Below are positions 7,269 through 32,709 of a stretch of DNA of 37,719 nucleotides, one piece after another. The position numbers and the translations under genes were made by a program. Within the stretch, counting starts at the first letter, position 1. Each line of letters opens with the position of its first letter. The DNA comes from a virus, in IMG/VR virus record IMGVR_UViG_3300007609_000046, positions 1-37,719 of that record. One strand, written 5' to 3'. The notes below the pieces were generated by a model. It saw nothing but the letters and a program-made list of their open reading frames with translations, made no database searches and was not told the DNA's origin.

Positions 7269-7398
7269 TGCGGGAGGCAGGATTCGAACCTGCAAGCCCA
7301 AGAGCTAGCGTTTATTTTATTGTGGAACTGCCAAACCACTGACGACTTTAGGGCACTTCCGTCAATCTGCTGCCGTATACCAATTCCGCCACTCCCGC
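7269..7398 (-). tRNA. tRNA-Leu-like gene with about 45 extra nt in the anticodon region
   Basis: The minus strand has a perfect 7-bp acceptor stem (GCGGGAG/CTCCCGC) with discriminator A, a Leu-type D arm (GGCGGAATTGGTATACGGC), a variable-arm-like hairpin (AGCT/GGCT) and a perfect T arm (GCAGG-TTCGAAT-CCTGC). Total length is 130 nt against about 85 for type II tRNAs. Between D arm and variable arm lie about 64 nt that do not fold as a normal anticodon stem; instead GGAAGTGCC pairs with GGCAGTTCC. No group I intron core is visible. It may contain an insertion or be a recombined, non-functional tRNA. No anticodon can be assigned. Confidence 0.55.
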
Positions 7399-30974: not shown

Positions 30975-31397
30975 ATGAGTTTATCTAAGTACATACAAGA
31001 CATATTTTCATTTATTGGGAAATTTGGCGTAGGCACAGATAATCCTCAATCAGCATTTGACGTTCAATCAACAGAAAGAGGTTCCACTCCTTTCCCTAGA
31101 ATGACGGCAGCCCAAAAGAACGCAATAGCTTCTCCAGTAGAGGGAGAGACGATTTACCAAACAGATGGTTTAATTGGGGTTCACGTTTTCAAGAGCGGAA
31201 GTTGGGAAAAAGAGAGCGGTAAATTTATAGAAATAGATGGATATGAATTTACATACATTCCAATAGTAGGTAATGATGGAAGTTCTTTGCAAGTAGGTGA
31301 TTTAGCTATGAACGGCAGGCTACCAAATGGAAATCTAGGTAGATTACTAAAATGGAATGGTACTACTTGGGATGTATTAGACGAACAAAATATATAA
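30975..31397 (+). CDS. Tail-fibre-type protein with PRMTxAxxxAIASPxEG motif
   Basis: Contains FPRMTAAQKNAIASPVEGET followed by IYQTDG, a segment characteristic of Bacteroidota tail-fibre and surface proteins (usually FLPPRMTTAQRDAI...GxxIYNT). The N-terminus has a short hydrophobic helix and GKFGVGTDNPQSAFDVQ. The same motif recurs in the next gene, so the two share a domain. Likely part of the adhesion apparatus. Confidence 0.62.
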   Translation: MSLSKYIQDIFSFIGKFGVGTDNPQSAFDVQSTERGSTPFPRMTAAQKNAIASPVEGETIYQTDGLIGVHVFKSGSWEKESGKFIEIDGYEFTYIPIVGNDGSSLQVGDLAMNGRLPNGNLGRLLKWNGTTWDVLDEQNI

Positions 31398-31415: not shown

Positions 31416-32309
31416 ATGAAAAAAATGAAAAAAGTAATTTTAACACTTGTCCTTTTGATAGGGACAACAATGTCCTTTACACAAATTGGTATTGGAACAA
31501 TAAACCCCGATGTTTCAGCTGAACTAGACATTTCGAGTTCAACTAGAGGGTTTTTACCTCCACGGATGACCACAGCCGAACGGGATGCCATTGCTTCTCC
31601 AGCAGAGGGATTAACCATTTACAATACCGAAAACAACTGTTTAGAAACTTGGAACGCTACAGATTGGATCAGCATCTGTGATGGGAGTATAGTTACAACA
31701 ATACCAAGTTCGAACTGCCCCAATACAATTACCACTGTAGTAGATGTAGTGGCTGCTGGAAACACTTGGATGGACCGCAATTTGGGTGCCAGCCAGGCAG
31801 CTACTAGCTCTACTGACGCCGCAAGTTATGGCGATTTATACCAATGGGGGCGTTGTGGCGATGGACACCAGATACGTACCTCCAACACTACCAGTACCAA
31901 TGCTACTACAGCAGTACCTAATGCTGGCAATAGTTGGGATGGCCTATTTATTACAGAGGGTAACTCCCCTTTTGACTGGTTGGCTACACAAGACAATAGC
32001 CTATGGCAGGGTGTATCGGGCACCAACAACCCCTGTCCAGCGGGTTATCGGGTACCTACAGAAGCTGAGTTGGCTGCTTTGAATGTATCGAATGCTACTG
32101 AAGCCTTTGGCTCCCCACTCAAATTGCCCGTGGCGGGCGGCCGCGACGGCAGCGTTGGTACGTTCCCCAATGTTGGGTCTAGCGGCTACTATTGGTCAAG
32201 TACGGTTAGTGGCACCAGTGCCAGGTACCTCGACTTCGCTAGCAGCTTTGGCAGCATCATCACCAGCAACCGAGCAAACGGACTCTCTGTTCGTTGCCTT
32301 AAGGATTAA
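31416..32309 (+). CDS. FISUMP-domain adhesin-like protein, candidate DGR target
   Basis: A 297-aa protein with a signal peptide (MKKMKKVILTLVLLIGTTMS, cleaved near SFT), a GFLPPRMTTAERDAIASPAE segment (about 47-70), and from about 110 a FISUMP domain (WMDRNLGA, YGDLYQWGR, DGHQIR, NPCPAGYRVPTEAE) ending in GYYWSSTVSG and RANGLSVRCLKD. The C-terminal segment matches the C-type-lectin-like variable region of diversity-generating retroelement targets. GC content and codon choice differ sharply from the neighbouring genes, suggesting acquisition. Cell-surface or virion-tip binding role inferred. No reverse transcriptase is in the window. Confidence 0.75.
   Translation: MKKMKKVILTLVLLIGTTMSFTQIGIGTINPDVSAELDISSSTRGFLPPRMTTAERDAIASPAEGLTIYNTENNCLETWNATDWISICDGSIVTTIPSSNCPNTITTVVDVVAAGNTWMDRNLGASQAATSSTDAASYGDLYQWGRCGDGHQIRTSNTTSTNATTAVPNAGNSWDGLFITEGNSPFDWLATQDNSLWQGVSGTNNPCPAGYRVPTEAELAALNVSNATEAFGSPLKLPVAGGRDGSVGTFPNVGSSGYYWSSTVSGTSARYLDFASSFGSIITSNRANGLSVRCLKD
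32184..32306 (+). other. Candidate DGR variable region
   Basis: The last 41 codons of the FISUMP gene hold about 21 codons ending in C (GGC, ACC, AGC, ATC, TAC, GAC and others), whereas the phage otherwise prefers codons ending in A or T. Runs of NNC codons are what adenine-directed mutagenesis of AAC codons in a template repeat produces. It ends in RANGLSVRCLKD, like known variable regions. No template copy is found in this window. Confidence 0.5.
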
Positions 32310-32328: not shown

Positions 32329-32709
32329 ATGAAAAAGATAATATTATTTACAATAGCAATGGTTTCTTTCGGGGCTTTAGCACAAAGAAACGTTAGATAC
32401 GATTTAGATTTTCAATCAGAAAACGAAATCAAAAACGCATTGATTAACCCATTTGCAGATAAGGCAACAATGGAAGCATTCTCGACATCAGAAAGCTACT
32501 CAGTAAATCAGAATGGTGTGTTGGCAACAACTCAAGATGATGGTAAACTGTACGTTTGGAATGACCCTAATTGGATAAATATAGGCAGTAGCGATGTATT
32601 TAGAGATTCAACAGGTGTACAGCCTGCAAGTGGATTCAATCAAACAATTAGACATGATGGCGGTTTGATAATCGAAACGCCAAATTCACTATTTTACTTA
32701 AAAAAATAA
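32329..32709 (+). CDS. Secreted protein, 126 aa
   Basis: Residues 1-18 (MKKIILFTIAMVSFGALA) form a signal peptide with likely cleavage before QRNVR. The mature protein has short beta segments (GKLYVWNDPNWINIGSSD) and an LIIETPNSLFYLKK end. It follows the FISUMP gene by 20 nt. It may be a surface-exposed partner of that protein; no family recognised. Confidence 0.6.
   Translation: MKKIILFTIAMVSFGALAQRNVRYDLDFQSENEIKNALINPFADKATMEAFSTSESYSVNQNGVLATTQDDGKLYVWNDPNWINIGSSDVFRDSTGVQPASGFNQTIRHDGGLIIETPNSLFYLKK

Follow-up and report, generated by a model that had tools for sequence, protein, structure and literature searches.

The C terminus of a FISUMP (Fib_succ_major) protein from an environmental crAss-like phage is most probably a genuine variable repeat (VR) of a diversity-generating retroelement (DGR), carried on a C-type lectin-fold domain; we put the probability of this reading at roughly 85%. 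The window, meaning the whole stretch of DNA analyzed, is a 37,719-base viral contig (IMG/VR record IMGVR_UViG_3300007609_000046). The open reading frame at 31416–32309 on the plus strand encodes 297 amino acids and was assigned to the DGR-target type from its Pfam match and homologues. Codon alignments show that the VR retains the third position of AAC/AAT template codons, whereas positions one and two have been randomized, as in a homologue with a proven template (TR). An environmental crAss-like phage would thus join the carriers of DGR-diversified lectin proteins.

Architecture of the protein and codon pattern of its C terminus

The protein begins with MKKMKKVILTLVLLIGTTMSFTQ, which, read by eye, resembles a Sec signal peptide of about 23 residues (31416–31484), with a Lys-rich start and a hydrophobic core followed by IGIGT; the leader noted in the original prediction looks Sec-type, and it is similar to those on other late phage proteins. 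Next comes an N-terminal domain (31485–31685), carrying the pattern GIGTxxPDVSAELDISSSTRGFLPPRMTxAERDAIASP, which recurs in the upstream phage gene at 30975–31397 and in bacterial FISUMP proteins. The FISUMP domain lies at 31755–32306. The motifs noticed earlier correspond to Pfam Fib_succ_major (PF09603), which matches amino acids 114 to 296 with an E value of 1.2e-10 and 42.4 bits, above the gathering cut-off of 33.9, and the open reading frame closes with the previously described ending GYYWSSTVSG...RANGLSVRCLKD.

A virion protein that is assembled in the cytoplasm would not be expected to have a signal peptide, yet similar leaders recur in the late region; either a set of proteins is exported by these phages, or the Sec-type leaders have another purpose. 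Such leaders were seen on late (tail) region proteins at 32329–32709 of the window and on phage contigs L095 (7133–17290 and 17281–17973), L096 (7171–9612), and L101 (4733–9787, 9791–10480, and 10501–11367). The leader-bearing late proteins of Bacteroidota-type phage contigs often lie beside FISUMP proteins or are themselves FISUMP proteins.

An AlphaFold2 model of 31719–32306 built with 96 relatives reached a mean pLDDT of 95.8, compared with 38 when 12 sequences were used, and confidently predicts a C-type lectin-fold variable domain at the C terminus. The structural matches had Z scores of 5 to 7, which are moderate (Z < 8), and the top of the match list was dominated by C-type lectin-fold proteins. 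They included the C-terminal domain of Legionella Lcl (8q4e), the Bacteroides fimbrial protein 4eps, C-type lectins, and the DGR protein Mtd (1yu3; Z = 5.3).

Scanning 84,980 species genomes yielded 66 loci with relatives of the gene, and a complete DGR stands beside a homologous FISUMP gene in the Bacteroidales MAG T1Sed10_123 (locus L006/L077). Its FISUMP target, about 64% identical to the protein of the window, ends in a VR. The TR is located some 2.7 kb further downstream, and a reverse transcriptase (RT) with the motifs GxxxSQ and YVDD stands between the two. TR and VR of this locus share 186 bp with 21 mismatches, all 21 of which face TR adenines. The C-terminal region of the window's gene aligns to this TR without gaps and codon by codon, which places its VR at 32123–32306; in the window, unlike in the Bacteroidales MAG, RT and TR are not found on the same contig. 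The segment proposed originally, 32184–32306, lies within the VR but is too short, the first variable codon being at 32139. By analogy with the Bacteroidales locus, the constant 3' end SVRCLKD (32286–32306) would be the place of initiation of mutagenic homing (IMH).

Opposite the AAC codons of the proven TR stand 15 diversified codon columns spanning 32139–32285, with codon starts at 32139, 32145, 32148, 32166, 32181, 32187, 32217, 32226, 32232, 32238, 32259, 32265, 32268, 32277, and 32283. There the window reads GGC GAC GGC CCC AGC TAC AGT TAC GAC GCT ATC AGC AAC AAC CTC. All 15 columns thus conform to NNC (13) or NNT (2), and only two still encode Asn, in line with the AAC-to-NNC conversion that had been proposed for this C terminus. 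Among 23 DGR-like homologues, defined by a C3 (fraction of codons with third-base C) of at least 0.8 at the template columns and counting the window, 12 to 15 of the 15 columns carry the signature. Their first and second codon bases are highly mixed, and the third base is C nearly throughout apart from two columns, where NNT occurs in 9/23 and 8/23; these are exactly the two NNT columns of the window. Since the group was picked by its C3 score, the agreement at the two NNT columns is the more telling observation. Across 96 domains, the scores form a continuum with the window at its upper end, so the score alone cannot classify every gene. In four MAGs, the variation of VRs with 68 to 75% DNA identity falls on the same codons.

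The enrichment of third-base C at the template columns is significant against phage late genes (p = 2.5e-9), the rest of the gene (p = 8e-7), and the other columns of the VR (p = 0.0026). The earlier remark that about half of the last 41 codons end in C was accurate in its count (21/41), but C sits at specific template columns and is not evenly spread. A rival view is that this is not a VR: the lectin fold would conserve the residues, and codons ending in C would stem from a GC-rich donor. The motifs YWSST, RAxG, and SVRCxKD do occur in FISUMP proteins without the NNC signature, and the domain as a whole is rich in C3. However, C3 is 0.867 at the template columns and 0.391 at the other codons of the same VR, control columns gave 0.41 in the comparison with the proven TR, the NNT exceptions fall in the NNT columns of the family, and the pattern is missing from non-DGR homologues, including the six FISUMP paralogues of a Flaviramulus tandem array (2 to 4 of 15). 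This view is already disfavored, and we regard it as very improbable. The paralogues of that array (L004, 2639–8900) have diverse C termini and were presumably diversified by some other route.

Phage identity and origin of the FISUMP domain

The capsid protein of the window shares 54 to 69% identity with those of 15 IMG/VR contigs, as well as 37% with csAssE-Sib and 34% with Cellulophaga phage phi4:1 over 97% of its length. The portal, terminase, and adjoining structural genes also match csAssE-Sib in the same order. On the basis of this homology and gene order, the window belongs to the Crassvirales and is a fragment of an epsilon/Cellulophaga phi4:1-type crAss-like phage; the carrier of the FISUMP gene is a crAss-like phage of Bacteroidota. 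The genomes of its relatives measure about 120 to 160 kb, of which the window would represent around a quarter. No near DNA match was present among 50,697 phages, and no second copy of the phage was found; a single-sequence search of IMG/VR gave no close relative of the whole protein, a scan with the constant 3' end gave none, and a portal-based search returned no match. Elsewhere in the window, an Rfam tRNA match of 130 bases and 33 bits lies on the minus strand at 7269–7398; it was not called by ARAGORN and is perhaps an interrupted or degenerate tRNA.

The composition of the gene differs from that of its surroundings. GC content between 31501 and 32500 is 0.46, compared with 0.29 to 0.41 elsewhere in the window, which bears out the impression that the gene is GC-richer than its neighbors. 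The last 41 codons have a C3 of 0.512 versus 0.155 for 6,508 codons of other late genes (p = 1.3e-7), and the best 41-codon stretch reaches 0.56 in this gene and 0.37 in any other late gene. C3 rises from 0.087 in the signal peptide to 0.224 in the N-terminal domain and 0.265 in the FISUMP domain before the VR, the last again above the 0.155 of late genes (p = 8e-4). The excess is therefore partly common to the whole FISUMP domain; given this gradient, the entire domain looks foreign, with a further excess at the template columns.

A FISUMP domain was found at none of 69 capsid-related phage loci, searched 10 kb to each side of the capsid gene, nor was a FISUMP gene present near the capsid gene in any of the 15 closest relatives. 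A tree built from the sequence preceding the VR places the window together with three FISUMP domains of another phage contig, L095, and one Bacteroidales gene (94/87); this group is nested in a starred set that also contains Flaviramulus genes. The nearest nonphage kin are Flavobacteriaceae and Bacteroidales genes. The placement is in keeping with horizontal exchange between Bacteroidota and their phages, and codon usage suggests that the domain was captured from a Bacteroidota family of DGR-target genes.

It is conceivable, albeit somewhat unlikely, that the capture was the end of the process: an already diversified FISUMP gene or domain would have been taken from a Bacteroidota DGR target by a phage that has no cassette, and its sequence would now be fixed like that of any adhesin. 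The absence of the domain from capsid-related loci, the bacterial kin, the codon usage that has not ameliorated, and the lack of a hairpin after the VR all speak for such a frozen repeat. Against it, the window groups with the FISUMP domains of another phage, and not one of the 15 columns departs from the NNC/NNT rule, implying little decay since the last homing event.

Possible sources of diversification

The variation was probably made by mutagenic retrohoming, in which an error-prone RT would have copied a template RNA and misread its adenines, with the resulting cDNA replacing the VR. The 15 varied residues may form a changeable ligand-binding face, and the product, exported via its signal peptide, could act as an adhesin or receptor-binding protein.

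Neither an RT nor a TR-like copy was found in the window, as the original prediction had stated. The RT search, which detects known DGR RTs including that of csAssE-Sib, covered 31.4 kb upstream and 5.4 kb downstream of the gene; the best other places for a template were only 0.71 to 0.74 consistent. A GC-rich hairpin follows the VR of phage DGRs at a distance of 4 to 34 bp (PMC3240598). None was seen directly after the VR of the window, but this is not diagnostic, since the proven Bacteroidales DGR also lacks one within 34 bp. A scan of IMG/VR with the TR pattern returned six matches, all of them poly-A tracts that satisfy the pattern trivially.

The phage may well have a TR and an RT of its own in the portion of its genome that lies outside the sequenced fragment, with the VR as a remote target, although we rate this at somewhat below even odds. 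The window covers only about a quarter of a genome whose relatives reach 121 to 160 kb, the epsilon crAss-like phage csAssE-Sib, whose capsid, portal, and terminase are homologous, carries a DGR downstream of the tail genes (PMC11054128), and one VR of the Bacuni phages is remote from the RT (PMC8143477). However, the 15 closest phage relatives all lack an RT, among them contigs of 121, 124, and 130 kb, relative L001 shows none in the 13.5 kb after the region matching the right end of the window, and the VR of csAssE-Sib lies in a protein without a FISUMP domain. Likewise, no RT was found on the other viral contigs with FISUMP genes (L095 to L101). The absence of a cassette in the relatives of the phage and the combination present in this phage group are new points. 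In a distant crAss-like relative (L200, G1217), a DGR-type RT bearing GxxxSQ and YMDD lies near short, diverged repeats and probably belongs to a separate DGR.

Diversification in trans by a DGR of the bacterial host is a further, rather improbable source. The skeleton of the window VR is related to chromosomal VRs, with up to 81% identity outside the variable bases; the same N-terminal domain occurs in chromosomal FISUMP proteins, as on a contig shared with lipA and dnaK (L003); and several MAGs have two to five FISUMP genes that bear VRs, so that a single cassette might act on targets at scattered sites. Against this, none of the genomes sampled contains a TR or VR skeleton approaching 100% identity with that of the window, and the literature searched gave no precedent. 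With the inferred template as a probe, 36 genomes of one order gave mainly further coding VRs and no clear TR. RTs in the genomes with the nearest bacterial homologues are mostly of group II intron or retron types; among the homologue genomes, DGR-type RTs occur at L077, L085, L089, and L090. The full scenario, in which the host DGR diversifies in trans a host-derived exported FISUMP protein that lacks its own cassette, so that the cell's machinery rewrites a phage protein, we hold to be more doubtful still. There is also a small chance, comparable to that of action in trans, that none of these accounts applies and that the VR reading is wrong or incomplete. If the cassette is truly absent, whether host DGRs act on phage genes becomes a testable question.

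Comparison with known DGR targets

Reported DGR targets already include Fib_succ_major domains, both in gut metagenomes (PMC4159848) and in Bacuni phages (PMC8143477), and DGRs occur in epsilon crAss-like phages (PMC11054128). The Bacuni phages of Bacteroides uniformis, with Fib_succ_major/DUF1566 targets, resemble the window phage as Bacteroidota phages with a Fib_succ_major target and a VR at the 3' end of the gene; however, they are siphoviruses whose genomes include RT, Avd, and TR, whereas the window phage is crAss-like and neither RT nor TR was seen (PMC8143477). The variable gut-metagenome proteins share the domain, the C-terminal VR, and, in the cited example, a signal peptide, but that example is a lipoprotein with an Mfa2 domain, whereas the window holds a phage gene without a lipobox (PMC4159848). 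The csAssE-Sib DGR (OR575929) belongs to a related phage group, lies downstream of tail genes, and has a C-type lectin-like target; unlike the gene studied here, this target lacks a FISUMP domain and has RT and TR adjacent, the RT carrying GxxxSP (PMC11054128).

Mtd of Bordetella phage BPP-1 is a tail protein of the virion, and its RT, Avd, and TR lie next to it. Mtd has the C-type lectin fold and a C-terminal VR in common with the window protein, but no sequence similarity between the two was seen.

A VR can be recognized without its own template through third-base conservation against a homologous TR. Orphan or remote VR targets are missed by surveys that require a nearby RT, and such misses are stated for the method of PMC8144416 itself.

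Several further FISUMP loci were noted. The MAGs G453 (L107, L110, L112, and L113) and G457 (L106 and L109) contain two to five FISUMP genes with VR-like ends that differ mainly at NNC columns; no DGR-type RT was found in these MAGs, and they possibly hold dispersed target sets. Multiple long FISUMP proteins with VR-type C termini lie on different contigs of one genome, Balneolaceae ANBcel3 (L018 and L036). Moreover, the 3,386-residue phage protein of L095 (7133–17290) combines a signal peptide with four FISUMP domains, of which domains 2 and 3 carry NNC at 12 and 10 of the 15 template columns and domains 1 and 4 at 0 and 4.
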